Under the pieces are notes generated by a model. It was not told the origin of the DNA, did not search any database, and saw only the letters and a program-made list of their open reading frames with translations. From Dillenia suffruticosa (taxonomy: Eukaryota; Streptophyta; Magnoliopsida; Dilleniales; Dilleniaceae), in the NCBI GenBank assembly GCA_033439265.1, contig JAVTVX010000031.1:19450001-19514000 (forward strand): a stretch of 64,000 bases of DNA, in the 5' to 3' direction. The position numbers were made by a program, and so were the translations under genes. Positions 13,165-55,704 of the stretch are shown here, one piece after another (position 1 is the stretch's first letter; each line of letters opens with the position of its first letter).

Positions 13165-15493
13165 ATGAAAATTCTGGAAGCCCAAGAGGGAGACGACGAC
13201 AAACTCACAGAGAAGCTTAGTGAAGAAGCAGCAGAATCCGGAATGGCAGCCTCCTCCGCCATGGACGGCGTGGCTGCGACGGCTCTCCGTTCGGTTCTCT
13301 CTCGAGTCCAACAAGCCGCCGAGCGAACTGGTCGTTGCGCCGATCAGATTCGAGTCGTCGCCGTCAGCAAAACCAAACCCGTTTCTCTCCTCCACCATGT
13401 CTACGATTGCGGTCATCGTTGCTTTGGTGAAAATTATGTTCAGGAATTGGTCGAAAAAGCCCCTCAGGTCTCTCTCTCTCTCTCTCTACAAATTTAAAAT
13501 TTTTGCGATGTTTGAGACTTGCAGTTTTCAGGATTCAGATTCAACTAACAAATCTATGCTCTCTCTCTCTCTCTCTCTCTCAGCTTCCGGAGGATATACA
13601 GTGGCATTTTATTGGGAATTTGCAGAGCAATAAAGTGAAGCCTCTTTTATGTAAGATTCTCCATTTGCAGTGTCTGTGTGTGTATGGGGTTGTTTATATT
13701 TAATTAGATTATTTTAATTTTAGGATATGGTCGATTAATAATGTTATATTCAGATGGAATTTATTTTTGGATTTTGCAGCGGGTGTGCCAAATCTTGCCA
13801 TGGTAGAGACTGTGGATGATGAGAAGGTAAGGAAAATCTCTGCTTTGATATTTGTATGAGCTCAAAAATTAAAATTCTAAGACAATGATTTGATAACTCA
13901 AACAAATTGGCCTTTTGCTTTTGAAGATTTAATTTAGAATTGATACTATTAGATTGTGGGACGTGCTATGTCATGGAGTGTATATTTACCCAAAGAACAT
14001 GCGAACCAGGGGCAAAGCCAGAAATTTATCTTTGGGGGAATTCAACATGCATTTGATTGTGCCTACTAGGTTTAGCTCTATGTTTCACTGGCACTTTTGG
14101 ACATGAGCATGTAACTTGCAATAGTTCATAAACTTTTGCAACTTGTTGACACTGTGTTGTGCCTATATTATGACCCGTGTCTTTGCTTCAGAGGCTTAAT
14201 AATATGTAAAAAAAGAATGCCTGGTGTAGTGTCTCTTGGTGACAAAATTATGTTGCTGGTGTCAAATGATAATATAGTTGATTGCCTTATCAATTTTCTT
14301 TTCATTTACATATGGTGTCTGTATTATTCCACGTGTTTCCTTACATTCTCCACCCTTATACTTCAAAAAAAGAACAACCATGTAACTGGATTGTGTTACC
14401 AGCAAAGAACTCTTCCTCTTTCTTGTTTATTTTAATAGCTTGATTGGCATGCTTTATTGAGGCTTCTACCCACACAGATTGCAAATCTTTTGAACAAAGC
14501 AATTGAAAGCATTGGAAGAAAGCCCTTGAAGGTCTTTGTGCAAGTAAACACAAGTGGGGAAGAATGTAAGTTTAATAAGTATAATGTGATTGTTTATCTG
14601 CATCAAATTTTGGATGTGCTAAGTAGAAATTTGTACGCGCTAAATGTAATGAGCCATTCCGTTCGGTGTACAAGAGTTGTGATAGATTTGGAACTGAATG
14701 AAATGCCTCTCACAATGAAAGTAAAAAGTAGCAGCTGGCTCTAAAATTGCATGTCTAACCTTACAACATAATGTTGACCTAGACATTCCTTTACTGTTCC
14801 TGTCTTTCAAAATTGAGGACTCTTTATTCAGTGTGGATCATGGAAATTTTCGTTTTTTATTTCATGTTTCTTGAAACTTGTGCAGCGAAATCGGGTATTG
14901 AACCATCAGGTTGTGTCGAACTTGCAAAACACGTTCATCTTGGATGTCCAAACCTTGAGTTCTGTGGTCTCATGACAATTGGGATGCCAGACTACACCTC
15001 GACTCCAGAAAACTTCAAGGTGGTCTACATGTTTGTAATTTATTTTGTGTCCTGCTCACACTGACTCATGACATGTTGTCCACCAGACATTGGCAAACTG
15101 CAGAACTGAGGTCTGTAAAGCACTTGGAATCCCAGAAGGGCAATGTGAGCTGTCAATGGGCATGTCGAGTGATTTTGAGCTAGCGGTGAGAATGTCCCGA
15201 TAATACCATTTTAGACTAATATCTTGTGATGAACTAATAGATGGGATATATTTTATGTCACTCAAAAGTATTGAACTGTTGATTCTGGATGGATGAAGTA
15301 TTTCTGGTAATCTCATGATGATAATTAAGAATCAAGTGTTTGTTTGTAATATGCTTCTCATTGGGGGGACAAAATTTGAAGCAAGACTAACCACCAAATA
15401 CTCTTTCTGATTGTGCAGATTGAAATGGGAAGCACCAATGTAAGAGTTGGATCAACCATATTTGGACCAAGAGAGTACCCCAAGAAGAATTAA
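13165..15493 (+). CDS. PLPHP: Pyridoxal phosphate homeostasis protein (YggS/PROSC family)
   Basis: Seven exons: 13165-13467, 13584-13650, 13780-13826, 14478-14565, 14886-15019, 15087-15185, 15419-15493; 813 nt, 270 aa. All junctions are GT..AG and keep frame. The protein binds PLP on a fold-type III barrel and buffers the free cofactor; it has no known catalytic turnover. Seen motifs: VVAVSKTKP with the PLP lysine at K69, [11 protein letters not shown] (~84-94), [18 protein letters not shown](S)[43 protein letters not shown] at the C-terminus, which covers the phosphate-binding region. The conserved family start is the in-frame Met27 ([20 protein letters not shown] at 13243). The upstream 26 residues are acidic and may be a lineage extension or leader. 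Both ends of intron 1 are hemmed in by CT repeats. A transposon ends 57 bp before the first ATG. Confidence 0.95.
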
Positions 15494-15757
15494 GATCAGA
15501 AGTCCTCAAGCTAGCCCGACTCTAATAGCACATTTCATTCATCTCTTAATGCATGGACTGAAGCTAAGTATCGGTCATATCAGACTGCATTTTTCCCCAG
15601 GATTTCTCTTTCTTGTAGAGCTAGTCCTGGAAAATGTCTATCTAAAATGGTGCACAACCAAAATGGCCTCTTGAACAAAAACAGTGGCTAACTTGTGTAT
15701 GACTATATGTTCCATAATAAGCGAAAATGGAGAGAGGGAGAGGGAGAGGGAGAGGGA

Positions 15758-15793
<36 letters not shown>

Positions 15794-16102
15794 TAGATGT
15801 TGCCACAACACGAGGAGTTTGTTGATGGGTGTTTGGTTGGTTGTTTATGACTCGTCCTTTATGTTGGCACTTTGCCGAAGTCCTCTCTTCTTTTTTTAGC
15901 CCTCCTTGCTTTTGTGATTGCAATTCTGAACCCCTTTTCTTCATTCCTCCCTCTCTCTGTGTCTCTCTCCCTCCTTCCCTCCCTCCCTCTATTAATTGCT
16001 ATTGTGCATAAATCTTGATTAGGAGTGATGTGGTATAGATTCATGGACCCTGCAAATTTTCATTCTATTATTACTTTTTGGTTAAAGTATGGAAATAGAA
16101 TT
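15494..16102 (+). other. PLPHP 3' region with GA repeat
   Basis: Downstream of the stop codon lies presumptive 3' UTR, then a (GGGAGA)n/(GA)n microsatellite at about 15732-15790 and a CT-rich patch at 15950-15990. No further gene is visible. Confidence 0.5.
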
Positions 16103-16205
16103 TTTTTTTTTTTTTTTGGTATCATGGTTTGGTTACCACCCAATATCTGGAATTTCGTCCTGACTAATCTGGATCAACTGTTGTCGAATTTTCGATCTGA
16201 TTAAG
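16103..16205 (-). mobile_element. Truncated SINE, family C
   Basis: Reading on the minus strand, GATTAGTCAGGACGAAATTC leads to a GATACC end followed by A's, matching the 3' part of the SINEs at 7523-7705 and 7933-8151. The 5' half is missing. Confidence 0.55.
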
Positions 16206-16960
16206 GGACAAAGGTGTTTGTTTCACCTACGCTAACAAATGTTGATAGCATGGAAATGGATTAAGATCAACTAACAGCGCAGTTTGGAAATAAAAAGAGC
16301 CAATTTCTACCTACCGTTATGGATTTTTGCATTCGATATCATAATATTCTAATATAATAACTACTTTAGGCTCGTGCGTAAAGAAATTTAATGAGCTTTT
16401 GAAAATCCCCTCTATTTTTGGATTATTTTTTTTCCCTTAATTAAAAAATGCTACAGGTAAAGGAAATAGAGGGAAATCGTGGGAAAGAGAAGGTATCCAA
16501 TTGTAAAAGAATTTTGGATTATTTTTGGATTATTTGTTTTATAAATGATAATTATATATTTAATTAATATTTATATAAAAATCTTTATATTTTTTATATA
16601 TACATATTTCTTCATGATTTTGTTTCTGATATTTTTATAAATTATCATTTTTCTATATGGTATCGTATCTGTATCCATTTTCCATTTCCATTTCCATTTC
16701 CACATAATCTAGTTGTAAAGTACATGCTCTCGACTAACCAATGAATGTATATCATGTGATATTCTCAACATTTGCAATGGTCGACTTTTGTATAGCTTCA
16801 TTCTAAAATGGTTGAGATACAAAAAAATGGGTCGTTTATCTTCTCAAGTTTAAGGGTCAAGGACTACGCTGATCGTCTCATTTTTTCTTGCAGGATCGAT
16901 CAACACTTTTAGAGGAAAAGTCATTTTTTTCACATATTGTTAATCCAGGTTCACTTGTTC
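16206..16960. other. Intergenic, no gene seen
   Basis: AT-rich DNA with a short run of TTTCCA repeats near 16678-16700. No open frame of substance, no RNA gene and no clear transposon ends. Confidence 0.45.
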
Positions 16961-16971
16961 TTTTCATCAGG

Positions 16972-17953
16972 TGTAAATCTTTTGCAGATCGGATGAGGCG
17001 TGATCCTGATGTGATTGACAATGAGACAAAAAGTTTCATAGAACTTGATGGAACATAACCAAAGCCTCATTATCGATATCAAGGGATTTAGAACTTTTTC
17101 GAACCGTGACCCATTGGACACAACATAATCGTCATCAATACGATATTTATCCCCGCACGGGTAAACACGGCTCATCTCTTTCTCGGTAACTACTTGATCA
17201 ACTCTTAAATCTACTTAGTGTTCCATGACCCCATTCAATTACCCCTTAAAAGTACAGAGTCCACATCCTGTAAGGGAAAGAAAAGTTTTGGTTACCGCTG
17301 ATAAAAAAAAAAGAATCTTTTGTGATTCGAATTTTCTCAAATAATAGCATTTCAGATCTTTAAAAATCTCTTACTATGATCAATGTAATCTCGAGACATC
17401 TCCATAAGCAAACTAGGATTTTCACATTCTGAAAGCATACTGAACTCATGCAAGCAGACTTTATATACTTCAGTCCTGCCGACCAGGTAAGTCCTTTTAC
17501 TCTTTGAATTTATGCAAAACACACAAGACATATAGATCTTTCTTTCATACTGTTTTCTCTATTCCAAAAACCGTTCTCTGATTTGAGCATTGAGTCTCCC
17601 GTGTTGAAGCGTTCTCTGGCGGTTCTTTGTAGGCCTTACTCATCAAGATCGACAAATGGCTGGTCAGCCTATTCGAGTGAACAGGGTCATTATCTGCGGA
17701 GCTAAACCCATCTCTGATAGAACTTTTACCTGATGAACTGAAACAAAATGAAGCAGAAGCCGAAGAAAATCTGCCACGGGCTGACATGGCATTGCTTGAG
17801 GCAAAGAAAACAACATCCCAATATCAGAAGGAAGCAGACAAGTGCAATTCAGGCATGGAGTACTGCGAAGAAGTGAAGGAGAAGGCAGAAGCAATTTTAG
17901 TAGCACAAAAGAGGCTTACTGCCATGTGGGAACTTAGATCTCGCCAGAGATGA
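16972..17953 (+). pseudogene. DUF1068 family protein pseudogene
   Basis: Two fragments resemble the plant DUF1068 family (small proteins with one N-terminal membrane segment and a coiled C-terminus, function unknown). Fragment 2 (17699-17953) is unmistakable: LIELLPDELKQNEAEAEEN, RADMALLEAKK, SQYQKEADKCNSGMEYCEE, LTAMWELRSRQR, then TGA where the family has GGA (Gly) before WKE. Fragment 1 (16972-17047) reads SFADRMRRDPDV....KSFIEL, aligning with SFADCAKHDPEV....KNFAEL of the family, but runs into a stop two codons later and is 650 bp away without a usable donor. The membrane exon, the Cys-rich CPPC region and a start codon are absent. A short functional product cannot be ruled out, but a dead gene is far likelier. 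Confidence 0.75.
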
Positions 17954-18722
17954 TGGAAAGAGAGTGACACTTTAAGTCTCATGTTTAAGAAATCTTCGAA
18001 TAAATTGTTGCACATAGTGAGGAAGATTCGATAGGCTCCTCATCTTTGCCTAGTCACTGTCTAGTCACATGATTGCAAGTCTAGATACAAAGAGATTTTC
18101 CCTGTAATAGAAACCATAATTTTTACCTTGGGTATGCAGTCTTTCCTTACCTTACACTGGATCGTAGGCAGCAATGGCTGACCGGTCGAAAGTTATATCA
18201 ATTGTTTGAACCTTATTTCTTGGTGTTCTCTCTGACAGAAAGGATAATTTTAAATGCCGCAATTTTCTGTCACTTGATCAAGCATTTTCTTGGTCTGTGC
18301 TTTCATGACCTGAACCAGCTATTATGGCTACCAGGTACTTCAGTATTTCAGAATTTCCTAAACTTATTCTTTTCTGCGGAGGGAAATCGCCCCGGACATT
18401 GTCATCTCCAAATCGGCAATGAAGAGTTGCTCTCTTCATTTAACGGCAGGCCTTGGCTTTGGAATTTTGATGTCTCGAGTGATTCCCAATTTTGCACCTC
18501 ATAGGGTGCTCTTGTTATGACTTAAAACCATACCTTGTGAGTTGAAAATGACTTCGTGATATTAAAGCCATCATGCAGGAGTTGAAATTTGAATGAGCCA
18601 AGCAAGTTAGTTGAGGTCTGTTTGTGGACCATCATTTTATTAAATGTGAGTAGTCCGAACCATGATAAAATAAATGTTACTTCTGGTAATATGAGAACTC
18701 TACTTTCACAATGTCATGCAAC
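17954..18722. other. Between DUF1068 relic and peroxidase
   Basis: No recognisable gene. One 100-codon frame at 18202-18504 has no motif I know. The last part is the presumptive peroxidase promoter. Confidence 0.45.
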
Positions 18723-18732
18723 TATATATATA
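18723..18732 (+). promoter_or_regulatory. TATA box of the peroxidase gene
   Basis: TATATATATA 65 to 75 bp before the start codon, giving an expected leader of about 35-45 nt that would consist mostly of the following GA repeat. Confidence 0.5.
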
Positions 18733-18765
18733 TGCACTTACCTTTCTGTCTTTCTTGACTTTGTT

Positions 18766-18769
<4 letters not shown>

Positions 18770-18796
<27 letters not shown>
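18770..18796 (+). repeat. (GA)n directly abutting the peroxidase start codon
   Basis: An uninterrupted GA run of about 13 units ends at the base before ATG, so it forms the 5' leader and start context. Confidence 0.85.
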
Positions 18797-18799
<3 letters not shown>

Positions 18800-20543: not shown

Positions 20544-23500
20544 TCAAAGAAACCAAAAACTGTCACTCAGAAGGCGCATGGCTGCCCCCTCAGAGAACTT
20601 CCTTGCAAACAAGAAACAGGGAGCAGATGTAGAATTTAAACGGCACCATTCTGTCCGAAACTCGGTTTCATAGTATACATGAGATATACCCTGCTAGATT
20701 ATAAAAACCAGGATAGTTATAAGGAAACACAAATATAAATGGACCTATATATCATTATTTGATAATTGCCCAGGTCCAAGATTTAGGGAAATAATGAGAA
20801 CCAATCACCTTTATTCCTTCAATGTGTTGAGGACCTGCACTTGCATAGGTAAATGTAACAGGATGCCAAGATCTCCTCTGCATTTTTGTTGCAGATTGGT
20901 TCCATTCTGTGTAGGTCAATGTTCTCCGCTCAAGTTCACCTTCAACATTGCTCATCTGCGACAATAGATATTAATGGTTACTAAGTTTAACCATCTTGAG
21001 TGGGGCAAAGTACACAAGAAGCGGGGAAAAAGATTATGCTGCTGCATTTGTAATTATCATGATAATGAAGTCATTCCATGTTACACCTTTTTTCTGTTGG
21101 GTTCCCCCCTGGGGGGGCAATTGATTTGTTGCGGAAGAGCAAAGCATGCACAGTAGGATATCATGAATATCCTAATAACAGATTAATGGTAAATTATCCT
21201 CATGACTCTGTAAAGGAGCAGAATTGACCAAACATAGAGTCAACTCTTTAAGTCCCTAACAAGACGAAAATAAAAACCCAGCTAAACTAGATTAAAGTAC
21301 AACTTCACCAAAGTAAGAGTGGGTGAACATTTGAAAGCAAAAAACCAAACAACTTTAAACAGAGATTAAACCATTGCAATATGGAATATGGGCAGAACAA
21401 CACCAAAATTTCAACCTTGACATGGAAAGAAATTTCACCATTTCCAACATTCTGTGTTTCTCAAAACAAGTAAAAGAAATGCAGGAAGCAACATCTTACA
21501 GCAAGTAATGTCTGCACGTAATGTTCGTCTGAGATGCAATCATGCCGCTTCAGTTTCTGCAATGACATTTAATGATCGAATTAGATTTTAATCAACACTT
21601 AACTGGAAAGATTTCTCAATGTACCATAGAAAAGCAATCCAAGGAACATGATAGGAAGAGTAAAGGAAAGATCTGGAATGATTCCAACTTCGTTATTGGT
21701 CATTACAACAGATGTAACTGAATGCACACTCGTGGCCTCCATATAAGAACAATTCCTAAGCATTTCCTTTCATCTTCCTTTTGTCTATTGTTTTAGAGAA
21801 CATGACGCCCTACCCAAAGTTGCATCTGCAGAAGATTCATGACTTCCTCCAATCCACTCAATCAAAGTAGTGAAATAAACAAGGCCAAGCAATACCACAA
21901 GCTCTCCTCATGCGGTAGACCTCATTCATTGTTAGCTAACCTTGCCTTCCTACGGTACACTTTGGTTGATGTACCCTTGTGAATTTAGTCAAATGTCACG
22001 TTTATTACTTGGATTAAGCTCAAGCTCCCAAACTAAACATGGCCAGTCAGCTGCCAGCCAAACATAAAATCCAGAGTAGCTTCAGCAAAGTGGAGAAACA
22101 ACTGCACTTTTTGAATTCACAGAGGAGCTCATTTTACCGAGGTAAAGAGTATTTTCTGTTGCAAAAATGCCATGAGAAACACAAGAATCAACGATAGTTA
22201 TCCACCATGAAGATGGTCCAAATCCCAATCACGATGTCAAACCTAAACTCAAAGGCCCGATTTTCCTTTTGTAAATAGAAAAGAAAATTTCATGATACAC
22301 ATCCAGCCAGAGCACCATGAACAACCTAAAAGAAATGCATAGAATCCACAAAAAGACAGGACATCCTCCTGAATTCTAAAAGTTTATGAAGTGAAACTAA
22401 AATGAAGGGCTCACCCGGTGCACAAAATGCTCCCTGACTTAGTGCGGGAGTAGGGGGAGGGTAGGTGTATATATACACAGCCTTCCCCTTGCATTTTTTT
22501 TCTTTTTTTTTTACAAAGAGACTATCTCCACGCCTAAAACTAAAATGAAGGGATTTAAACAAAATATCCACAAAAGTAGCTAAGGTCTCTCAAAACACTT
22601 AAAACTTCTTAAATTTCTCTCCCACCATAACAAGCCAAAATATAGTTAGGGGAATTAAACTAGGAATCCTCCTCTTTGTTATACTACATCCCACCCACTC
22701 CAAACCCAAAAATTGTAATGATTTTCTTTTCTTTTCCAAAATCGCCTTCAGTCCCGATACCACTACAAAATAGATCACAATGCATATAAGACACAGAAGC
22801 TGTCAAATTTCTGTCACAGAAAAACATTGTGTTCCCCACAAATAATATGTGCTTGATCTCCACTCCTGTCATCTGCCATAAAACTCTCAATCCTCCAACC
22901 CACTGAAGCTCTAGTACTATTTTTCTCAAAGGCCCAATTTAAATTATTGATTAGAAAAGGCAGAGATAGACAACGTGAATAGCTTCAGAATATGGGAAAG
23001 AATTTCGCTAGTAATAAACAGAGTTCAGAAGATCTTCTAACAAAATAAAAAGTTTCAAGGAAAATAACTTCAAGGAGCATTAGCCACTTTTTGCGAGGTA
23101 AGCTACATAAATAAACAGAACATAGAAGGTTGGGTAAAGATCACTTACCAAATTTTGCTTCATCAATCTGATATCAACTGCTGATAGCCGCTGCAACATT
23201 ATAACATATCAACCATCTAGGAGAGCTGCAATTCTTATAAACTGTAAGATATTTATAATGTCTGCTATTTTTTTACCCTCTTCTAAAGTTAAAGCTATCT
23301 CAACATGAAAGAGCCTTTTGTGCAACACTCTTGAGATGACAAGCTCAATGTCATTGGTTCAAGTTGAACCACGGTCAAACTGACCTTTACAAAACTCTGT
23401 TTAAGAACTACATGCCTAGGCAGTGAAGAAACAATTTAAGGGAATTAAGATTTCTCATACGTACCTTGCAGACTTTTTTGAAGACCGGGAAAATAACCTC

Positions 23501-26500
23501 ATCATCAACAATGACTTCTGCATGTTTCCGAATTAGGGTGACCCACTGAAATTATCATTGTAGTAGTATTCAGAGTTTTTATAAGGAATGTCGATTTACA
23601 AGAAAATTGCATAATGTTACCTCCACATATTCATTGTTGACAGAAAGAGCAACAGTGACAATCAAAATCAAAACAAAAGCGGTGATGCAAATAAGAAATA
23701 ATAAAATGAGAGAAAAAAAGAGAGATGATAAAACATAAAGACATTCAGTATTATCAAGACATTAGAAGTAAAGACATTCATACATTTCTTGCAGAAAATC
23801 CATCATTTCAATAGGTAAAATTCTTATGGTAACAATCATCAGCTAATGGAAACTTTATGTTCATGCTATTGCATAATCTAAACAAGACATTGTCTATATT
23901 TAAGAAGATAGATAACCTGGGACCCCTTTCGCCAATTTTCCTTTGGTATAACAGGTGACATCTTCGGGTTATAGCGTTTCTCTTTGGCATCAAGGAAGCT
24001 GTAAGAAAAAGCGAAGAACGAGTACTGTGATTATTAAAGCTAAATTTAATTTCTTATTATCAATAACCCTCCATGAAAGAATCCAGATTCCTGATATACC
24101 TGTCCACAAAACTCCTTGGAGAAGCCATCACGTAGTTGTATATGTAGCTAAAGTTGTACAAAGGAACACAGCTGCAAGATAAACAGCATCAAAAAACAAA
24201 ATATTTAGCTCAGGATGTAATATACAACTACACGTCTGGCAATACATATTGCACAACTCAGAACATATTTATTTATAGTTTTTGCAGCCAATCTACCTAT
24301 CTCAACTGTGTCAATGGAGTCGATATCAACCAGCAAGATACACTAATGCAACAATTACTAGAATTATTAGCAAATCTCATAAGTCATTTACCTTAAATAT
24401 CTCCCCCAAAAAAAATACAAAAAAAGAGCTCTATTGGGCTATATTAGAATGCCATAATGTAGATAAAATCAGATAACAAAAAAAATGTAATCCAACCATG
24501 TGTCTAATATGACCTCTTGAATATGAAGATCAAATGGGTCAGTAAGTTGGAAGTTGAAATCCCAGCCAGAATTTCATTAATTTTGCAAACGTAGAAATTG
24601 CTGCAAAATATTCCAAAGTCATTCTGGGACAGAGTGCATTTGCTTCTTTAAAATAAAAGAGGGAGAAAATATATATGTTTCAATAGTAAAGGGCCTGGAA
24701 AATCAGGGCAATCAGAACCAGGCAAGAGAACTGGATTTCAACACCACAAGTTTCTGTATTCAGAATTAATTGCCTGGATCCTCCATTTTGTATTCCATTC
24801 AGTCAAGAAGCAGCCTTGCTTTATACACACACACATACATATAGAGAGAAAGAGAGAGAAAGGGAGGAGAGAGGAGGCTGCTTGAGGATAACTTGTGAAA
24901 GAGGAGGGAGAATGGAAGACAGAGATTCCATAATGTACATGAAATCTTTTGGGCAATGCGCAAATTCACCCCAGTTCTCATCACTGGATGGGCAAAAAAG
25001 GTAATGAATGAACTGCAGAACTCAGAAATTAGACTAAAAAAGTTAAAGAGGGGGAGAAGATTCCATCTTCTAGGGCTTTTAGTGACCAATAATAAGGTGG
25101 GTTGTTATTAGCTGGTTTGCATTCAGAGGATGTATTATCATTCTCTTAAAAATTATTCCATATCTGCCCTCATAATGAATTTCCTCTTCTATAGAAAAAA
25201 AAAAAAATATATATATATATATATAAACCCTAAACAAGAGTAAATTAATTATTTTGAGATTTCAAAATGAACCTGTCTGAGAGAAGAATAAATCGCTGGT
25301 TTGCAGGATCCTCAAGAGCCACTTCAAGTAGCAACCTCTCGGCCTCAATCATACTTGATTCTCCCCATTCTACCTAAAATCAACAATACAAACGACAACA
25401 ATAACAAATAAATCATCAAAACTACCAACTAATAAAAATTGCAAAAAATATCTACATTGAACAAGATAAAATCTTCAATAACACAATCTATCAAAGCAAC
25501 AACTTGATTCACAAACCATCAATTCTTATTTTCAATGAGATAAGATTGTATTTTATACTTCTTTGCAGGCTCATGCCTCCGGAGTTTATAAAGATTATAT
25601 CTTGGAAGAGTTGATGAGGGATTGGAGAGCAGTTCTCCATTAGTTTTGTATCATTCTTTTTCTGTCACCGAGGGTTTCTCATCTTTGGGGTTTTTATACA
25701 TTCTTTAATACATCTAAAACAATTGCTTTTTCTATTAAAAAACAATTAGATTCACGAAAATCAAAGGAAAAACCTAGAAAAGCCAAAAAAAAAAAAAAAA
25801 AAAAAGAGCAAATTTTTTTAACAAAACTACCCATTAATGAATCTGGCAATAAAAAACCCCTAGTCCCAAATAAAGTACATGCTGTAATAACATGCAATTA
25901 AATAGCAAGAACCATATTAGCAACAACTCGGATTGACAAACATATACCATATCAAACAAAAACCTATGAAAACCAGAAATTTCAAATTTAGAGCTAAAGA
26001 TCATACCTTTATACTATTGCTCAACTGATGACCATAAAAGAAAGAAGACCTACATGTTGATTCATCAAACACAAAACCAGGCTCCGAGTGAATATATATC
26101 GAGAAATTAGCTGAATCCGCATTCTGCAATCTCCAAATACCAAATATCACCACAAATAAAAAAATTAAAAAAAAAAAATTGAGAGCGAGGAAGAGAGGAA
26201 TTAGCTGAATCCATTTTCTGCAATCCCCAAATACCACATATCACCCAAAAAAAAAGTGAATTAGAGAGAGAAATTAGCTGAATCTGCATTCTGTAAACTC
26301 CTAATTCCAAATATCAGAAAGTTTCAAATCAAAATCTCAGAGAGAGGGAAGTAAAAATACAGAGATAAATTAGCTGATTTTGCATTATTCAAACGACAAA
26401 TTCAAAATATCACAAACAATTTCGGAATCTCTACGCCAAGTTCAATTACAGACACAGGGGGAGAGAGAGACAGAGCAGCTAAATCTGCAATCTCCAAATC

Positions 26501-26534
26501 CCCAGCATTTCAAAGTAATCGAACCCAAATCAAA

Positions 26535-26573
<39 letters not shown>

Positions 26574-26856
26574 CAACCTCGAAGAAGCTACCCCAGAGAA
26601 AATCAAGAGGGAGGTTGCGACGAACAAGAAACAAAAACGCTATCTTGGGAGGACCTTCGAAGTCTTGAACCAAAGGGCGAGATCTACGAGACCGAGAAGG
26701 CACAATCGACGAACCACCCAAAGTCTCTTGAGCATAATGAAGTCTGTAAAGCGCATAAACACAGAGACCAATCGTCACCAAAATCACCAGCTTCAATCCA
26801 AACAAGAAGGCTATTCTCAATGTCAGCAATTGCGCTTGCTGTGTCTTCTTCGTCAT
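20544..26856 (-). CDS. GT14 (core-2/I-branching type, DUF266) glycosyltransferase
   Basis: Ten exons, in transcript order 26578-26856, 26007-26123, 25273-25373, 24100-24171, 23917-23998, 23465-23545, 23149-23190, 21500-21556, 20809-20955, 20544-20690; 1125 nt, 374 aa, frame kept throughout. A type II membrane anchor (about residues 14-36) suggests the Golgi, with the catalytic part in the lumen. Family segments in order: PPKIAFLFLVRRNLPLDFLW (69-88), FSIYIHSEPGFVFDE, VEWGESSMIEAERLLLEVAL, FILLSDSCVPLYNF, YVMASPRSFVDSF, RYNPKMSPVIPKENWRKGSQW, DDEVIFPVFKK, CISDEHYVQTLLA, ERRTLTYTEWNQS, EFRTEWC, PCFLFARKFS. Plant GT14 members are linked to arabinogalactan and wall glycans; the exact sugar transfer is unknown here. 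Introns total about 5.2 kb. Intron 1 carries five copies of its own 3' splice region. Two GA runs flank exon 1. Confidence 0.95.
26101..26515 (-). repeat. Five-fold repeat of the exon 2 splice-acceptor region in GT14 intron 1
   Basis: Five diverged ~50-bp units on the minus strand each read GATATTTGG...GGAGATTGCAG then AATGCGGATTCAGCTAATTT or a variant. The real acceptor borders exon 2 at 26123. Units with a surviving AG end near 26217, 26290 and 26484; a unit near 26361-26412 has lost it. Each surviving unit is a potential alternative 3' splice site upstream of the true one. Confidence 0.8.
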
Positions 26857-32247: not shown

Positions 32248-34009
32248 CTATCGGCAACCAACTTTGACCTTCTGAGCTTCCAAGATAATGTTCAAGATCT
32301 TACCCGGGACATAGATTCTCTGTTGATGTTTTTCCCATCCAAAAATCTTGAAGAGTTTTTCATCTAGTGAGGCCAACTTAACAGCATCCTGCTCTGTGCA
32401 TGCTGCTTCTACTTAGATGGCACCACGTCCTCGTTTGCCAAGACAGTACCAAGTGCAGGGCACCAGTTTACCGGTACTTCGGCCTAAAAAAATGAATCAC
32501 AATTGAATGCTCTTAACAATAACGCAAATGGGATCATCAAGGACTGAAACATTACTAGACCTGATATGTCAGTCCTCTCTTCAACAGCTGAAGAAATATC
32601 CATTGAGTCCACTTATAATATTCTGGTTCTGTTGTAGAAATTTCACGATCCCAATCATATGAGAAGCCTAATGACTTAAGCTGTAAAAGAAGCAAACAGA
32701 CCGAATAAGAACACAACTAACAGGCAAAAGTACAATAGAACACAACTACAGAAATGGCCAAGTATAATTTAAACTGAATCACAATCGGAGACAACATTCC
32801 ATTCAACCCTCAAGTGGACATGCCGCAAACAATGATCATAGTTTACTATTTAAAGCAGGTGTAAGCATGGAAAGGCAATTGAAAATCAAAGTGAAAATCC
32901 CATAAGTTTGAAGGGTAGGCACTAAGAATGAATTCTTCACCTAATTAACACAAGAAAGAGACTTTAGAAGACCTGGGAGCGAAAATGGTCGATGTTTCCT
33001 CTAGTCGTGATTTTCAGGTGGGTTCCTGTCTGTTAAACACATTCCACAATTAAAATGACTACCAAAATGAAAACTAACCAAAAAAAAAATGCACCCATAG
33101 GATGCAAAACATTATACCCCTGCATTCTTTTCAATCTAGCAAGAATATCAGTGGCCGTGTATCCCAGTGAATGACCAACATGCAGACCAGCTCCACGCAA
33201 CCAAGAAAAAAAAGGAGAAAAAGTATGTGTGTAAATGAGACAGAAAGAGAGAGAGCGAGAGTAACCGAGACAAAGAAACCCAATTTAAAACAAGCCAAAT
33301 TGACATATACAAACAAACGCTCAAAGGAAAGGAACATATTTTATGGGATTAATATAAGGTTTCTGTCATTGGCAAGTTATACAACATGGAAATTTCTACT
33401 TGCACTTTCAGAATAAGCCGAAATGTAAGTCCTGAACGCCTTCAACACACAAATAACCTAATTTATGTAAATCATCCACAAATAACAAAGTGAAGAAAAA
33501 GTAAAACTTTTTGCAGCTCAACCCCCCTTCCACTCTCTATCTCTCCGGCAAGCGCCTACCTTAAACAGCTAAATTCAATTGCTCAAATCCTAGCATGGCT
33601 GGAACAATGCAATAGAAATAATAATAATAACCCAGTTATCCCACCAGTGGGGAAGAGAGAGGAAGAGACAGAGTGATTGGGCTTACAATTGTAAAATCAA
33701 GATCATGCATTTAATGAATTTTCATAAAATAGAAAAGCGCCCAGTAAAACTTCGATTGCTTAAATCCTAGCATAGTTTATCCTAAAAATTTACAACAACC
33801 CATTTATCCATCAGGTCCCAAAAGATGAGGGAAAGAGAGGTTAGGCTTAGAATTGTAAACTCAAGACAATGCAAGGAATGAATTATTATAAAGTAGAAAA
33901 AAAAAAACCCAATAAAAATCCAAACTTTAATAGTACGGTTATAATTTTAATTTCTTAAATCCTAGCACAGTTTATAAAATAACAACAACCCATCTTTTGT
34001 GACAAAAGA

Positions 34010-34052
<43 letters not shown>

Positions 34053-39100: not shown

Positions 39101-40522
39101 ATACCAGTAAATACGCTCATCACCGGAACAAATGGACTGGGGTATTTTGAGTTCAGACAATGAAATTCCTAGGCATCCATCAAACATTTGTCAGCATCTC
39201 AAAATTCTACATACTAGAAATGCATGAAAAAACTGAATCCGAATGCGCATACCTTTAATGAAAGCCTCAGCATCCATCTCTTGGCTTTGTTCCTGATTAA
39301 CTTGTTTTACATATGGAAGAAGCAACTTTAGCATGTATATGAGATGCTGAACCTTTTCTTGATTTGTGATATCCTTCTTCGCATTCTGCACAGTGGAAGT
39401 ATTCAGTGATTTGTAAATGGAAATTTAAAAATGTGGCTTTTGAATGGTGTGATAAAAATTAAACCTTAAGACATCCACTTGAGTGCAAGCAAATGTTACA
39501 GTTGCAAATCCCACGACAGAATGGGCATAATCTTGCAATTTCCTCTTCTGGTATAGCAGAGTACCTGATTACAAGGAAGAATAGACATACAAATTACATC
39601 AAACGAGCCTATCATCTCACAAAAGTACCAGCTGGCAAAGAATTAGAAAAAGCTTTCCAAGTGAAAAATAGTAGTCAATGCATTCATGCAAGCATATACA
39701 ATAAGAGAAAGACTTACCACTGCTTGAGGCATTGGATGCAATATAATTTGTCTTTACAGTTGTTGCATGGAACAACGACCAATCTGTCATTCCTTCTACA
39801 TTGATGGCACCTTGGGCGTTCCTTTTTCAACTGCTTTCAACATGAATTCTATTATCTTTTTGTAGTAGATAAACTGGATGAAGGCATGGCAATATAATTT
39901 ATACTAAAACTGAAAACTAATTCTTGAGACATTCTCTTACCTGCAGATTTCTTTTTGAGCATCTAATAGATCCATCACTATGTGAAGCTGAAACAGAAGA
40001 ACATGACGAAGAAGAAGAAGAAGATGATGTAGAGGTTCGAGCCTCTCGCTTTCTCCTCGCAATATTTTCTGATGTCCCTCCCGTCCACACACCATCTGAA
40101 GATCTATTTCTGGATCTTCTTTTGAGATTCATCAAACTGATCTCTTCCAAATAATCTTCCTCTCCCATACTTAAATCATCCTCGGATATTCTTTTCTTTT
40201 TCAACTGGTTCCTGCACTTTGTTGAAATCCTCTTACCGCTTGAACTTGAACTTTCCTTCCTTCTTCTTTTCGTTGCAGCCTTTGTCCTTCTTCTAGGGAA
40301 TCTCAAAACCTCCTCTTCATCATCATCTTCATTGTGGTTGCCATCTTTTCTTCCTACTCTTAATTCTTCTTCCGATGCAACCTTCTCATCTTCATACTGC
40401 AAAATATCACTTAGCTTTCTCTTCATCGGAGGCTTTGGAATGGATGAGGCATTTGAAACACTCCGCACTTCACCAAGATGACGATGACTCATCTGTGATT
40501 GCTTGATAATCAAAGTCGCCAT
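36196..40522 (-). CDS. JmjC histone lysine demethylase, JMJ25/KDM3 group
   Basis: Twelve exons, in transcript order 39941-40522, 39718-39830, 39465-39564, 39253-39385, 39105-39168, 38327-39026, 37712-38041, 36919-37332, 36760-36832, 36579-36664, 36369-36488, 36196-36270; 2790 nt, 929 aa, all frames joining. The N-terminus (1-190) is basic, acidic and Ser-rich with likely nuclear signals (KRRRKE, KKKR). Residues ~200-265 form a RING-like zinc cluster ([29 protein letters not shown]); a second Cys/His cluster follows at ~325-365. The JmjC domain holds Fe(II) ligands His668 and Asp670 ([10 protein letters not shown]) and His859 ([12 protein letters not shown]). Such enzymes remove methyl groups from H3K9 with 2-oxoglutarate and O2; Arabidopsis IBM1 protects genes from silencing. 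The ATG follows an in-frame TAG. By position I take it as the counterpart of At1g11950. Confidence 0.95.
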
Positions 40523-46541: not shown

Positions 46542-47554
46542 ATGGATTCCGTGAAAGCAGCAGGAGGCATCCAAATGCTTCTGACTGCAGAAAAGGATGC
46601 TCAACAAGTTATCTCGAACGCTAGAAATTGTAAGAACTAATTGAAGTGTCATCTCGTTTTCTTATATTCTCTCTTCAAATCAAATCAACATCAACCTGTT
46701 CACACTTAACAGAAATGTTTATATTAACAAAATTTTCTATAATTTTGACCTATCGTTCCGGATACCCCCATTTTTGTAAAAAAAAAATTAATTGTATTTT
46801 TTGTCTTAACCAATCTACGTCTGGATTCATATTCCGATTGATTCTATTTGAGGTATGGTCAGACTCTTTATGAGGGGATCTCTTCCTGCATAATTTTTTT
46901 CATTCACAAGATTCAAACATAAATTCTTGATTAAAGAGTCTAAATACCTTTCTCATAAACCGACCGTCCATCGGTGTAAGAAATAATTGTATGCTCCCAT
47001 TTTTTGTTTTTGTTCTATTTTTTGGGTTTTAATTTCTTCTGATGATATCAATTTGTACCGATTCTTTTAAAAATAATTTGTTTTAATATTGGACAATGCA
47101 ATACTTTGTAATTTTTATAAAAATTTTAATAATATTATTGTCATTTTGTTTATATCATGTTGTGTCCTATTTTTATGCGCTTCATGGGATAAGACTCGTA
47201 ACCATTGGTTCTTGCATGATTCAGTCAAGATGACAAGGTTGAGGCAAGCAAAAGAAGAAGCTGACAGAGAAGTTGCCCAGCATCGCTCCAATTTGGAATC
47301 TGAATACCAGAACAAAATTTCCGAGGTACAGAATTATAGTTTAAATAGAATAAAAACCAAAACCATTGTGTCCTTATGTTGGGTTCTTTGTTTGACATTG
47401 TATGGAATAGACAAGTGGAAGTTCTGGGTCAACTGTAAAAAGGCTTGATGAGGAAACGGAAGAGAAAATCAACAGCTTGAAGCAGACATCCTCTAGGGTA
47501 TCTAAAGATGTCGTTGCCATGCTCATCAAGCATGTCACCACAGTGAGATCTTGA
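46542..47554 (+). CDS. VHA-G: V-type proton ATPase subunit G
   Basis: Three exons: 46542-46629, 47225-47325, 47411-47554; 333 nt, 110 aa, the usual length for plant subunit G. It is part of the peripheral stalk (with subunit E) linking the V1 head to the membrane sector of the proton pump on vacuole and endomembranes. Seen: N-terminal [20 protein letters not shown], the family hallmark; [13 protein letters not shown] in a long charged helix; and the C-terminal [17 protein letters not shown]. The usual NLKM is NFKM across the first exon junction, a conservative change. The gene stands between JmjC and OSCA on the opposite strand and is not in the Arabidopsis neighbourhood I recall, so it may be a lineage insertion. 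Confidence 0.95.
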
Positions 47555-47608
47555 GTTGCAGAAGGAAAAATATTCCCTGTTTTACATCTTTCTATTTATT
47601 TATTATTT

Positions 47609-47620
47609 GGGGGGGGGGGG
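47609..47620. repeat. Poly-G run downstream of VHA-G
   Basis: Twelve G within the likely 3' UTR, about 55 bp after the stop codon. One of several long G/C homopolymers in the window. Confidence 0.7.
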
Positions 47621-48166: not shown

Positions 48167-51100
48167 TTAGGGTTGTTGAGAATCTTCAACTACCTCAGGC
48201 ACAGAAGGAGAGGAGCCGCCACTTATTTTGCTGGGTAATGGTGTGTTTCTCCGAGACTGACGTTTCGTGGGGACTAAGACCATTTCAGGCTCGCCCTTCA
48301 GAATCAGATCGTCATCATCTCCATCTTCACTGGCTTTGAAAATAGGATGAATATACGCATATTGGAGGTAGGCTTTCAGGTTGAAGTTTGGTTCTCTTGC
48401 TTTTTCCAGAGTATCCTTCATCATTGCTTCCTGAAAGGCCATAGCATAATGACCCTCAGTTCATATAAGTAGCTTTTTAAGATGAAAACACTAAAAGGAG
48501 GAATTTGACCATATTTGAGTAACTTTTTATTAATTCGACTGATAATGAAACTCAGGTTGCAATTAAGTTCCAACAAACCTGTAAAGGATATTTGGTGAAT
48601 GCAGGTTCATAACGACCCTTGCAAAACATATGGAACCAAATGGTTATCACGAGAAGCACAATGAGAAATGGTGTTGACTGAGCAGCTTGCTTGGTGCTCA
48701 ATAATCCCATTAGAAGTAGCTGTGAGATAACCAAGGCAGTTATTATACGTCCATGGACTGCTGGCCAAAATGCAGCACCACTCTCATACTCCTGGTTGTA
48801 AACATTTATGATCTGCAAGATGATAGAAAATTGAGTCAAATAAATGACAAGCAGCTATTTTGTAAGTGCAATACCATGTCTAGTAAATTCTACTCAACCC
48901 AATAGTCTTTGTCTTTCTCTAACCACTCTTCACCTGAAGCATCTTAAAATCAACTTATACTTCAGTACCTAATCTCGGTAGTGCTGTAAGTTTCCCATAA
49001 CTTCGCTTAAAGTTTTCCTTTTTTTCTTTCTTGGATGCAAAAATGCAGTAGATGATATCTACAAGTAACTCTATCCCCCCTTAGTTTGTTCTTCAACTGA
49101 TTACTTTGACATCAGGGTTGTTAAATTGAGGATCCTACCAAGGATCATACCCCATGCGTCCTCTAAATCTACAGCTTTCAAGCCATTAGAAAACAATGCC
49201 ATTTCTTTGGCAGGAACATCACATGACTATTGGTATATTTTACCACCAAAGCCGAAAGAGTTTAGTTTTACCTGGTGGCGAAACACAACATATGCCAAGG
49301 CAAAGAACACAATGATAAAAGGAAGTAAGATTGGGGTCACCACAGCATATACAAGGCCCAGCAAAAAATAAAACTGAATTTGAGGTTCTCCGGTGTTAAA
49401 ACCGAGACTTCCTGGTTCCATTGCGTCGTCTCTATCCTTTTCCGTCTTCACCAAGAAGAAATTCTTCAAGTGAAAGATTATCAATGGTTTCAACCTTAGA
49501 ATCTCTCCAGCAATTCCAGCCCAGCCATCAACCATAATATAAGTTATGAAGAAAGTAGCCTTCATTGGAATTGCTACTCCAATTGTTTTTGGGATGCTGC
49601 AAAAGAAAGCTTTCATTTTACTTCTCACTCTCTAAACTTGAGGCAAAGCTCTTAAAATGATTCAAATAACATGATACACTAGTATAGCATAAGTAAAAAC
49701 TTGTTTCCTACTTAACTGTGTCCTATTTAAAAGATTTTTTATATTGCTGTTTTCTTATTATGTCGTGTCCACTATAGAGTCCATTCTTCATAAGCTGGTA
49801 ATGTTTCATTCTTTCAGCCAGAACCTTTACAATTACTTCTACAAACTAGGCAATAGTAATCTCTTCAATAGCATATTTTTCCATGTAAATTATGAATTAT
49901 TCATATACATGAACTATTTGTGCTTTGCTGAGCAAGTGCTACCATTGCCAAAAGGCCATATTGCATCCAGTATTGGCTAAGCTCGACGACATGTACATAA
50001 TTGCTCCATGTAGAACACCATTGCAATAATCACACTTAAACATACCAAACTCCTTTGGGTTGAGTGGTCAGACATTCTACCCTCTTAACTAGGAGTCTCG
50101 AGTTCGAGTTCTGGGAATGGAGAAAAAGGATTTGGGAGAGCCAACCCCTCAATGGGCCCCACAGTGCTTGAACTGGATTACTTAGGCAAAGCCCGGATAC
50201 TGGTTGGTGAAAACCAAAAAATAATAATAATAATAATAATAGTAATAATAATAATCACACTTAAACATGGATTTACGCAAGCAATGAGTGTCTCAACACC
50301 TATTCTTGCAAGATTTACTGATGAGTGATCAGGATGATACCATCAGGTTAGGTTAGAAAGATGGTAACTAGACAGTACTCAAGCCTCCAGAAGGAGCCTC
50401 CTGGACAGGAACTATGCAACTATTCCATTACAAGCAGATAAACTAAACAATCCCACAATATAGAACCCTGATGAAGACACATATGCAAGAATACTTACTC
50501 ATTTGCTGACTGATTTATAAATGCTTGTAGCTGTTCAAATGCAGTACCAGTGATTATGCTGCCGAGGAATACATTGACAAAGTTAAAAAGATAATATCTA
50601 GATGCAGCTCTCCTTTCCAAAGATGATAGGGATATAAAGCCTTCAACTTTAGACATCATCATGAGAATTGCTGGCAGAAAAATGAGAAAAAGCTTCAAAG
50701 CAATGCCGGGTAGAAAGCCTTGGATAACTGACTTGATAAATTTACTGCAATCCAAAGTGATCTCCACCGATGTTAGTAACAGACCTTAACAGAGAGATGT
50801 TATTTGACCAGAAATTGTTATCTTTCAAAATGTATAGCGCAAAAAAATTATAGATCTTACTAACTGCCCAATAGACTTTTCCTCACAGGTGCTAAGATAC
50901 AAGTGTACTTTCTCCGTATGAGGGAAAATAACACATGAAACAATTGAGTTCACCTAGACCACCCCAAACAACAAATGGGCTTTTCAATGACAGAATAAAA
51001 ATGCACTTTCTCAGTAGCGACCATATGCAATGTTCCTTTCACCATAGCCACGTGGTACAACATAACACAAGTAGAGAACAATCACATGCCAGGAGTGCAT

Positions 51101-54100
51101 TTCAAAGAGTTTGATTCATTATTATTTTCTTTCTTGGTATGGTACTCTGTGTATGCCTGTGTATGTGTGGGGGAAGGTGACAGGATTTGTTTGTTCCACA
51201 GAAACTATTGACTAAAGCAGATGAGAAAGAGGTAAAACTCACATATCAATGATTGGCTTTAAGAAGGGTGCCTTCTTCTCAATCCCCTCGATATTTGCAA
51301 GGGATTGAACAAATGCAATTGGGATCATGAAGAAGAAGGTGAGGAAAAAGAAAGCAACAGCAATTATTAGCCTTCTGACTGTCAGAGAAACATATGGAAT
51401 GGCCAAGTTCTGCCAATACACATCACGTGGCTCCGGAGCCCACTCAGTTAACCATATGGTTGGATTTCTTGATTGCTGAGTCTGTGCACAGACAGCAGCT
51501 CCCCAACGAGTTTTGAAAGACACAAATGCTGCAGGCATGATATACTTGGAATCATTTGTTACCATTTCTTTCTCTGCAGCTATCTGAAAAATGAATTATA
51601 CAAGAAAATCAGAGCAGACCATAATACATGATTCCATTCGTGCATATCAGAAATTGAAATCCACGCATATTAACAACAAATTCTTTCACGCCGAAGCAAA
51701 GAAAAATCCAAGAATCTGAAAATAAAAAAATAAAAAAAATAATCAAGAAAGCAGGTAGATTGATCATTTGGTGTATGCTTGGATAATCTAGCCAAGCAAG
51801 AAAATAGCGAAGCAGCACTACCATGTGCAGTTAGCATCTAGATAATCACGATGCTAATCTGGAGCTAAAAGTAAGAAGGCATTCACTTTGCACATTACAT
51901 GAGATAGTGTAGGCGGACAACTACCACCTTAACATCCATTTAATAAATCACAACAGCAAAGAACCAGATTTTAAGGATGGGCTACTCTGACACAAGATCA
52001 AAAGAAATCCAAATATTTTCTGAAATTACATTACAATATAAATTGCAATAAAAATGAATGAATAGAATATAGACCATCAGTGACACGGAAAAAAGATTGC
52101 TAATAAACTCTTAAAAGATGAACAATGTAATAAAAGATCATTTTGGGGGTGCTTACTTCTTTTGACAGCCTCCCAATTTCAGACTTTTGATGATCAATTG
52201 CATCCACCTTTTCTCCCCAGCAGCCAAGAAAACCAGTCTAAAAAGGGAAAGTGAAATCATTCAGAAGACATTTAGATCAGTGTAAACATTACCGACAAAT
52301 TCTAACCACAACACAATAAACCTTGACATCTTACTGCAGTACCTTCATTATGGGTCTCCTTGACTGATTTCTAGAATATTTAAGCTCATAGTAATCATGC
52401 CAGTTCTGTGCTTTTTCCTTCTCCTTGACCAATGATGCAAGTTTGTTGGCATTGTATACAACCTGCTCGGAGTTTTTTACATGATCAAAATATGAATTAA
52501 GGTAAAATGTCTGCTAATGAGTGACACTAGGTACAGTCTACACCTTACGTTTCAATAGAAAATCTATGAACAAAATAATCATTTGGACACACAAAACAAG
52601 CCTATCCCATCTTCTTTCTGTCTAAAAGTAATGATTTTATCATAAACGTAATGAACCATAACAAAAACAGTTAATCAAGATCTGCTCCGCGAACTGCAGC
52701 AATTCAGCAGCTAGCTATCAAAAACAAAATACAATCTGTACAACACGCAACTCCAAAAAACCACAGAAAATCAAGATGGACAACACAAAAAAACTCTGAA
52801 AATAAGTATGCCGAAACTTCAAAATAGCCTGACTAGAAGAAATGAGATTGACCCAGTAACGTTGATGTCAACAGATCGTTAGTAAACCAAATGTGTGTGG
52901 TTGGAATACCTTGTAGCCATTTAAGTTGACAAATTACTTCCATAACCTTGCTGCAACAGCCATGATAACGATCCACAAGAAATTAATGTCTAACCATCAT
53001 ACCAAAAGTTCAAATAAACCTCCTCACTATTAAACACTCATTATTAATCAAGAGACACCATACAAGGTTCAGTACAATCAGACAACAGAATAGGAAAACT
53101 CCTAAAGATATATTAACCACAGGATTCCCACAAATTTCCTGCTGGAAGCAGAAGTACTAGAGTTTCTCTACCTACAGCACTTATCAACAATATTATATTC
53201 CCAGCGTATTTGCTTTTACTTAATACAAGATTCTAGCCCGCCCACCCTCCCACACCCCTCTTTCCACCTGGCCAACACCCAACTCTCTCCACCACCTCTC
53301 CTTTGCCACCAAAATTCATATATTTACATATATTTCATTAAAGGTGATACCTAAAGAAGTGATCAATTTGGCTAGAACAAATATATCTGAAAAATACAAT
53401 CATAGAATTGAATTTCATAAACCTAGTGCTTGAATTGAACTCAACTTCCCCACAAAAGATTGTTTAATATATGAAGATAACTTACCTCATGAGTAAGATA
53501 GTGATCCGGATGGTTAACAAGGAAAAAATGCTCCACAAGCTCACTAATGGATTCATCAGGGTCTGGTGGCACATTTCTCACAAGAACCTGCAATAATCAG
53601 AATTTGCTAGTTGAGTAGGGAGCATAAGCATAGCATAATGCAATCAAATCTGCTGCAAAACAACAAACATCTCAATCTCAAATACGCTTTCAGAAAGTGT
53701 GCACACTAAATTAGTCACGCAGTGAACTCAAAGCCCAGCCCTCTTACCTATGCTCAAACTCGTTAGTGCTGGACTCCCACACCCATACTCCCACTCCAAC
53801 AAGAAAAAAAGACTCAAAAGAACAGAAAAAAAATAAAATAAAAATTACTTCAGACTGGAGGTTTAAACGCTTGCTGTTCTGTTCCCTAAATATTTGATCC
53901 ATCTTGATCTTTCAGTATTATTTTTTGAATGCTTAATCCATTAAGGTCATTTGTTTTCATCAAAGTAAAATAAGAATAAACAGGGAAATCAAATTGAATG
54001 ATTAAAGAGAATGTTCTCGCAGATCCCTCCAGAAGAGAGGCACAAAATTAAAATATGTGATGAGGTGGAGGGTCAACCAGCCAATGGAGCTAGTCATGGT

Positions 54101-55704
54101 ACAGAAATTGCAATTTTCTATTTTTATAGAACTTTGCTCCCTTGTGTAGCTCTCATAAAGCTCTTCCCATAAAACAAATGAATGCAGAAAAGAATGGAAA
54201 GAAAGAAAAACATTCCAAAGATAGGATGACGTCCAAAAGATGAAGATATGAACCAATTATGGTCCCTACCGTAAATTGATCTGGACGACGCCTCTCTGAT
54301 GCAAGAAAATGCAACCTCATCGATGCAACCACCTCATACTCCTTCAGCAACACATAGCATGTCCAAAAAGTGAAGATATAGGCCATCACTATATGAGCTG
54401 AGAACCTGTAAAGTAAAATCTTCAGTATTGAGATTGAAACATATCAAATCGTATAGCAGACTAATTTAACTGGAAACAAGGTTTTCATATAACTCACCTA
54501 GGTGATCCGAGAGGAATATTTGATATAGAAAGTGTGTCAATATCACTGTAAGTTACTTTGGCCAACTTTAAGGTGCTATTTGTCACATTAACTGGCACTA
54601 GAATAGTCAATGCAAGAAATGCTATAGGAACGAAAATTTTAAGCCTGAAAAAGTAAACAGTTACCGAGAGTGAGTATATTAATTAAAAAAATAAAAATTA
54701 ACAAGAGAACATACTGTTATCAACCACAAACCAATAATGAAAGGCATTTGACAAATACAACGGGCGGAACACTCCGAACAATCTATTGGCGTATTATCTG
54801 AATCCTTCAGCACAAAACATAAATGACATTAAAATTTTCACCAAAAAATAGAGAAGAGCCATGCTTTATTATCTGTGTGAACTTACAGTAATAGCATGTG
54901 TGTTAAGTTAGCTAGTTAGTCTTATGCAATTTCATGCTACTCTCTTCCAATTGTCTTCAATTCATTAGTCACCTAAAATGCCTCTATAGCAGAACAATAT
55001 CAGTAGATTTGAGGGACAAATGCTAGCCAAGCACTTATCTCGGCACTTCCTGGGGTGATTTCATCCCTGACCAACTTACCATTCCTTCCAAAAATTGGGC
55101 TATGGGTGATCACCAACAAAATAAGCACAATTTCTCAGCAAAAAACAAAAAATGCTGGTACAAATTTTTCATTGGATAGCTACAAAAGGAAAAGGAAAAC
55201 TACACAGACAACTTCAGGCTGCATTAGGCTAACTACCAAACCAATGTTAGAGATCACAACATCAGCTCAGCAAAGCCACTCAAATCACAATGTAAAGGCA
55301 GCATCCATGTAGCAAAATAGTTGATTGAGATATAATCTGCAATGGAAACAAAACCAGAAAATAGGAAAGAAATAAATAGTTGTTGCATACCCTATTAGGT
55401 AAATCCGCAAATAAATTGCAGAATCTAATCCTGCGTGCTCAATAAGCTCAGGCTCTGGCATTTGCAGTGCAGCTGGCATCCAATTCAGAAACCTCACATA
55501 TGACCGATAGTCCAAATTGACAAATCTGCTGACGAACGCTCCTGAATGCGTTGGGCTGCTTCTTAACCCCTTTATATACCATTTTGGAAAATATACCCTA
55601 TCATTAAATGGTTGAAGGCGTAATATAGCAAATGCCACAAGAAAGATAATTGCACTGAGGATATTAATAGCTGCTGCAACTCCTATATCAGCAAGTGTCG
55701 CCAT
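48167..55704 (-). CDS. OSCA1-type hyperosmolality-gated calcium-permeable channel (CSC1-like)
   Basis: Eleven exons, in transcript order 55391-55704, 54498-54644, 54270-54405, 53486-53587, 52343-52462, 52157-52237, 51243-51583, 50499-50744, 49272-49596, 48579-48812, 48167-48430; 2310 nt, 769 aa, close to the ~770 of Arabidopsis OSCA1 proteins. These are plasma-membrane, mechanically gated cation channels that raise cytosolic Ca under osmotic or immune stress. Seen: N-terminal helix and LRLQPFNDRVYFPKWY; long cytosolic loop (about 185-355) with VRNVPPDPDES and NWHDYYELKYSR; the DUF221/RSN1_7TM pore part from about 355 to 670 with MIPIAFVQSLANI, IKSVIQGFLPGIAL, FNFVNVFLGSIITGTAF, MKATFFITYIMVDGWAG, GLVYAVVTPILLPFI; hydrophilic C-tail from 683. 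Ser54 matches in position the BIK1 phosphosite I recall for AtOSCA1.3. Intron 8 holds a SINE. The exon 1 boundary may be off by one base. Confidence 0.95.
50044..50249 (+). mobile_element. tRNA-derived SINE in OSCA intron 8
   Basis: Flanked by a perfect 19-bp duplication, AATAATCACACTTAAACAT, at 50025-50043 and 50250-50268. Near the 5' end, GGGTTGAGTGGTCAGAC resembles a polymerase III box A and TCGAGTTCGAGTTCTG a box B; the 3' end is an AATAAT-repeat tail. Perfect duplications indicate a fairly recent insertion. It lies antisense to the host gene, well away from the splice sites. Confidence 0.88.

Follow-up and report, generated by a model that had tools for sequence, protein, structure and literature searches.

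Alternate loss of duplicated genes from two homoeologous segments after polyploidy (reciprocal gene loss, or fractionation) has been described with the losses counted between species (PMC9157103). The present analysis concerns such a case in a 64,000-nucleotide stretch of the Dillenia suffruticosa genome, hereafter the window (C31:19,450,001-19,514,000 of an assembly of 596,357,000 bases and 37 contigs, to which all C-numbers refer), which carries a row of nine genes, two of them dead: an organellar leucyl-tRNA synthetase (LeuRS) gene and a DUF1068 gene. Relatives of several of these genes lie at two Arabidopsis loci. At1g11930, At1g11940, At1g11950 (JMJ26) and At1g11960 appear in one list, all within 15 kb of the same single-nucleotide polymorphism (PMC9491579); At1g11930 is PLP-BP (PMC11602438) and At1g11960 is OSCA1.3 (PMC8617523). 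At the second locus, At4g04340 is OSCA1 (PMC8617523), At4g04350 is LeuRS1 (PMC8067559), listed as chloroplast-only (PMC13308715), and At4g04360 is ELMO3 (PMC10631678, in whose main text the term DUF1068 was not found). The adjacency of At4g04340, At4g04350 and At4g04360 is taken from their consecutive locus numbers. The STIG1 gene is presumably At1g11925, the GT14 gene At1g11940, and the DUF1068 gene ELMO3. Dillenia suffruticosa was the sole plant genome compared, and the comparison with Arabidopsis was made through the locus numbers and names in these papers and one tree containing a single Arabidopsis OSCA protein.

With a probability of about 95%, an ancestral nine-gene neighbourhood was copied in a fairly recent whole-genome duplication, the window being one of the two homoeologues, and genes were afterwards lost singly from either copy. 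According to frame reading and Pfam, the nine genes follow one another from left to right as STIG1-like (-), PLPHP (+), DUF1068 pieces (+), class III peroxidase (+), GT14 (-), LeuRS pieces (-), JmjC (-), V-ATPase G (+) and OSCA (-).

The partner segment was found on C12. Profile searches of the genome yielded 16 matches for DUF1068, at least 11 for LeuRS (family model, 8 of 33 candidates scored) and 65 for OSCA, and the three meet on C12 (36,642,335-36,643,645, plus strand; 36,670,768-36,675,242, minus strand; and 36,689,967-36,692,638, minus strand, respectively), where order and orientation are the same as in the window. Comparison of the whole window with C12:36,610,001-36,720,000 in BLASTN gave 81 aligned pieces; those longer than 600 bases are collinear, show 76-89% identity and include exons, introns and spacers. 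The collinearity extends over about 45 kb of the window (13145-57718). At E 0.01, 48 of the 49 window exon cores were matched on C12 in order, the exception being exon 3 of V-ATPase G. All nine gene positions (9/9) form a single row on C12, ordered and oriented as in the window; the window is therefore one thinned ancestral neighbourhood. The original prediction, made from the letters of the window, had supposed a single ancestral segment carrying all of its genes, which agrees with C12, and had described the window as two interleaved neighbourhoods, which C12 excludes: the window is rather one ancestral row minus two members. Chance resemblance of the gene row is likewise excluded, since the entire block aligns with C12 at the DNA level.

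The disabling lesions of the window LeuRS and DUF1068 genes are absent from the C12 copies, whose frames look open. The C12 LeuRS gene is open piece by piece, HVGH and KMSKS are present, and E. coli LeuRS aligns with it in 11 pieces at E < 0.02 spanning residues 5-859. A search of the genome with the C12 LeuRS protein returned 33 matches, of which 18 lie at the C12 gene and five in the window relic, the other ten being either dispersed fragments or distant proteins of about 30% identity, so the C12 gene is the only full-length copy found. As judged from their sequences, the C12 LeuRS and DUF1068 genes are probably expressed and functional. It had been predicted that working copies of both would sit beside another OSCA gene, and the open copies do so, with the same order and orientations, in a collinear segment rather than in an unrelated context. 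A reading of the raw sequence thus sufficed to predict where the working copies are located.

As for the LeuRS relic of the window, E. coli LeuRS aligns with it in five pieces (residues 5-44, 48-78, 111-151, 156-172, and then directly 811-859), residues 173-810 of the E. coli numbering being missing. The last piece reaches only E 0.11 with E. coli LeuRS and E 4e-20 with the last C12 exon; Pfam gives a class I tRNA synthetase match at 32558-32716 (E 5e-6). Compared with C12, codon 4 of the relic is a TAA stop (34421-34419), 2 bp are missing from exon 1, no acceptor AG remains before exon 2, and the end of exon 2 is deleted together with its donor. An internal deletion of about 5.26 kb at 32421-32424 (a jump on C12 from 36,674,353 to 36,669,100, with 3-4 bases common to both sides) fuses exon 5 to the last exon, and a further stop follows at 32415-32413. 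The stop at codon 4, the frameshift, the splice-site losses and the deletion bear out the predicted death of the organellar LeuRS gene. Its introns are retained and can be aligned with those of C12.

Several sequences related or adjacent to the LeuRS relic were also observed. An intronless run of LeuRS exons with stops at C4:13727823-13728492 is apparently a partial retrocopy, and fragments corresponding to query residues 657-755, or part of them, occur at C18:8.54 Mb, C31:4.67 Mb, C29:22.16 Mb and C15:20.99 Mb. On the 3' side of the relic, two similar stretches at 31343-32192 (frames with LHKHCWYFFVNYEGMAANF and LHKHCWCCFVKYEEMAADF) look by eye like a local duplication.

The DUF1068 gene, also predicted to be dead, is indeed disabled by frameshifts, splice-site losses, an insertion and a stop. 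In exon 1, 5 bp are deleted (about 15842) and the aligned position offers no donor; the 24-nt exon 2 (about 16894-16913), which is deduced from the C12 sequence, has a 2-bp deletion and a lost donor; and a TGA stop stands near the end (17951-17953). The Pfam DUF1068 match at 17681-17950 (E 8e-34) covers profile positions 74-160 of 165. As in LeuRS, the introns are retained and alignable with C12. Exon 3 is split by a dispersed repeat of about 670 bp, which is flanked by 9-bp direct repeats (17038-17046 and 17717-17725). With 40 of 227 candidates scored, at least 42 rows in the genome match the repeat, one of them being the repeat itself and the other 41 showing 66-77% identity; three of the rows cover more than 93% of its length at 66-70% identity. 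A 9-bp target duplication is, we assume, suggestive of a Mutator-like element; because no terminal inverted repeats were seen beyond 5-6 bases on the insertion, its class is left unnamed.

The loss is reciprocal: LeuRS and DUF1068 are dead in the window, and peroxidase and V-ATPase G are broken on C12. In the C12 peroxidase gene, 6 in-frame stops occur alongside the 225 codons compared, together with gaps; the C12 V-ATPase G gene lacks exon 3, apparently through deletion. Five of the nine positions are open on both sides, STIG1 in the form of tandem copies without one-to-one correspondence; of the other four, the window and C12 each have two that are open only there. This reciprocity was not seen in the original prediction, whose gene list omitted peroxidase and V-ATPase G, both open in the window. 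The five genes that it considered intact (STIG1-like, PLPHP, GT14, JmjC and OSCA, in this order) are all present and open, although the STIG1-like gene lies outside the interval 13165-55704 to which they had been assigned and whose ends are the starts of the PLPHP and OSCA genes.

The alternate loss of duplicated genes from homoeologous segments, with two of the nine gone from each side here, is what has been described as fractionation; unlike that description, in which species were compared (PMC9157103), both segments are here in one genome and the corpses are readable. The locus is a clear instance of an ordinary, familiar kind of event and leaves established views as they are. Its value is that of a compact, readable example, with both homoeologues present, four losses divided two each way, and visible lesions.

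Divergence between the window and C12 is similar for most genes, the synonymous divergence (dS) being 0.157 for PLPHP and GT14, 0.183 for OSCA, 0.217 for JmjC, 0.234 for DUF1068 and 0.236 for LeuRS. Pairs of similar age occur elsewhere: OSCA and DUF1068 on C30/C19 (dS 0.159 and 0.14) and DUF1068 on C13/C35 (0.15); the C18 and C4 members of the DUF1068 family had no partner of like age among the eight compared. A dS near 0.2 is more than alleles of one species would show, so the divergence points to a whole-genome duplication, and judging by the several pairs of equal divergence the duplication probably was genome-wide. The whole-genome duplication that had been predicted is thus supported by collinearity and dS, and the event concerned is the recent doubling (dS about 0.2), not the older split between C31/C12 and C30/C19.

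Several results weigh against this account. The dS values of peroxidase (0.346), V-ATPase G (0.37) and STIG1 (0.76) are all higher; these comparisons involve a broken gene, a short span (63 codons) or copies that do not pair one to one. The ratio of nonsynonymous to synonymous divergence (dN/dS) is 0.29 for LeuRS and 0.305 for DUF1068, scarcely higher than the 0.184-0.285 of the open single-copy OSCA, PLPHP, GT14 and JmjC genes; without a clear excess, the two genes either died recently or give counts too low for dating. In addition, only part of the C12 LeuRS splice junctions was resolved. In favour of the account, and with the C30 gene as an outgroup, the window branch of DUF1068 carries 7 amino-acid and 3 silent codon changes and the C12 branch 2 of each kind, while 5 are ambiguous; these small numbers point in the direction expected for decay in the window.

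It is quite improbable that one segmental duplication produced C31 and C12, or that they are two haplotypes of the same chromosome. Alignment at the DNA level does cover just the window/C12 and C30/C19 segment pairs; however, the dS near 0.2 is higher than alleles within a species would have, pairs of equal age lie on other contigs (C30/C19, C13/C35), and further OSCA loci, located by search and not by alignment, occur on C12 and C31 at 29.6-29.7 and 10.8 Mb. Even less credible is the notion that the window copies are still genes of altered structure, a shortened LeuRS and a split DUF1068. Long stretches of both relics remain well conserved, yet it would have to accommodate the codon-4 stop and the loss of residues 173-810 in LeuRS, the insertion and stop in DUF1068, and frameshifts and lost splice sites in both. 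The poorest candidate is that the relics came in by insertion, as retrocopies or transposon-borne fragments, and are not original residents: LeuRS does have such copies elsewhere (the intronless exon run at C4:13.728 Mb and short fragments on C18, C31:4.67 Mb, C29 and C15), but both relics have introns alignable to those of C12, with identical neighbours and orientation, and the retained introns and collinearity exclude a retrocopy origin.

Under the favoured explanation, a fairly recent whole-genome duplication would have produced two homoeologous nine-gene copies. LeuRS and DUF1068 would then have died in the window copy, and peroxidase and V-ATPase G on C12, whereas PLPHP, GT14, JmjC and OSCA would have stayed open in both, as would STIG1 in the form of tandem copies. 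Death came in place, through ordinary mutation: small indels, stops, splice-site loss, the deletion of about 5.26 kb and the transposable-element-like insertion. The collinearity, retained introns, lesions, open C12 frames and divergence are the observed basis of this account, and the order of the lesions is a part of it that we infer.

A second pair of segments is formed by C30 and C19, of which C30:20.80-20.89 Mb (90 kb) and C19:1.29-1.35 Mb (60 kb) were compared. In these stretches only DUF1068 and OSCA of the nine genes were matched; their relative order and orientation agree once the inversion of C19 is taken into account, and the two were therefore neighbours before the older split. The OSCA dS from C30/C19 to the window pair is 1.72-1.80, an age that would fit the old eudicot triplication. 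No relics of the other seven genes were detected in the C30 and C19 stretches at E 0.01, the C19 stretch ending about 5 kb past DUF1068 and hardly covering the PLPHP/STIG1 side; exons 1-4 of OSCA were unmatched on C19, where the stretch starts within this gene. The C19 copy of DUF1068 (C19:1341050-1341280) has two in-frame stops, so this pair, too, probably lost one of its two DUF1068 copies. In this genome, linkage of LeuRS is evident only before the recent doubling.

That one ancestral segment, duplicated and then thinned differently, accounts for both Arabidopsis loci, as originally predicted, is plausible; the loci would be thinned derivatives of it. A tree of six OSCA proteins included the Arabidopsis entry of the PDB, which is presumably OSCA1.2. 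This protein was placed nearest to C31/C12 (approximately unbiased (AU) test 0.825, bootstrap 79); a position on the C30/C19 side was not rejected (AU 0.215), and one outside both clades was rejected by the AU test (0.030), not by the Kishino-Hasegawa or Shimodaira-Hasegawa test. Both sides gave equal PDB bit-score differences relative to the rice OSCA chain (75 vs 74 bits).

The five genes kept on both copies here are the five kept together in Arabidopsis, if the STIG1 and GT14 genes are identified as assumed above. The four genes sorted here (DUF1068, peroxidase, LeuRS and V-ATPase G) are absent from the At1g11930-At1g11960 run as listed in PMC9491579. Provided that all nine are ancestral, the chance that four of nine would match exactly is 1 in 126. 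It nevertheless seems rather doubtful that the same neighbourhood repeatedly loses and keeps the same members after independent doublings: the comparison is single and post hoc, and peroxidase and V-ATPase G may be lineage-specific additions to the row. Organelle-targeted genes have been reported to return to single copy after whole-genome duplication (De Smet et al. 2013, cited in PMC9040051), and a study reporting more maintained duplicates is cited in the same source. The single full-length organellar LeuRS gene found here fits the reported trend, which one gene cannot test.

Table 1. Features of the window (positions counted from its first nucleotide).
Feature	Position	Strand	Evidence
STIG1-like gene, open frame	8957..9646	-	Pfam Stig1 8957-9643, E 5e-38
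PLPHP (YggS-like pyridoxal phosphate homeostasis protein), 7 coding pieces, open	13165..15493	+	E. coli YggS tblastn; Ala_racemase_N E 6e-16
DUF1068 pseudogene	15826..17975	+	Alignment to open C12 copy; Pfam DUF1068
Dispersed repeat of ~670 bp splitting DUF1068 exon 3	17047..17716		Absent from C12
Class III peroxidase, 3 coding pieces, open in window, broken on C12	18797..20107	+	Pfam peroxidase E 1e-66
GT14 (Core-2/I-branching), 9 coding pieces, open	20547..26856	-	Pfam Branch E 8e-72; joins
Organellar LeuRS pseudogene	32248..34430	-	E. coli LeuRS alignment; alignment to C12 copy
JmjC gene (zf-4CXXC_R1 + JmjC), open across 844 codons compared	36357..40522	-	Pfam
V-ATPase subunit G, 3 exons, open in window; C12 without exon 3	46542..47554	+	Pfam V-ATPase_G E 4e-30; joins
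OSCA1-type channel gene, 11 coding pieces, open	48167..55704	-	phmmer to PDB OSCA/CSC1 chains, 1323 bits; joins

The splice junctions of the six open multi-exon genes of the window were assessed by a permissive test, a GT-AG join that keeps the frame open, and such joins were available at 34 of 36 junctions. Both remaining junctions are in JmjC and are explained by two omitted exon pieces and an exon-1 end set too late. The GT-AG joins of PLPHP are in frame, at identical positions in the window and C12; its first exon was found in three genome copies (the window, C12 and C2:3.376 Mb). The Pfam domains of OSCA are located at 51242-51595.

A second STIG1-like frame, seen by eye at 1-717 and cut by the window start, stands in tandem with the one in Table 1, and STIG1 matches two tandem copies on C12. 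The STIG1 dS of 0.76 to the C12 copies, vs about 0.2 for adjoining genes, was also noted, and the tandem array therefore seems to follow its own evolutionary course on each homoeologue. Scanning the window with Rfam and for tRNAs gave no match. Frames resembling a decayed reverse transcriptase of a long interspersed nuclear element (LINE) are visible by eye on the plus strand at 30356-30768, in a stretch outside the listed C12 alignments.

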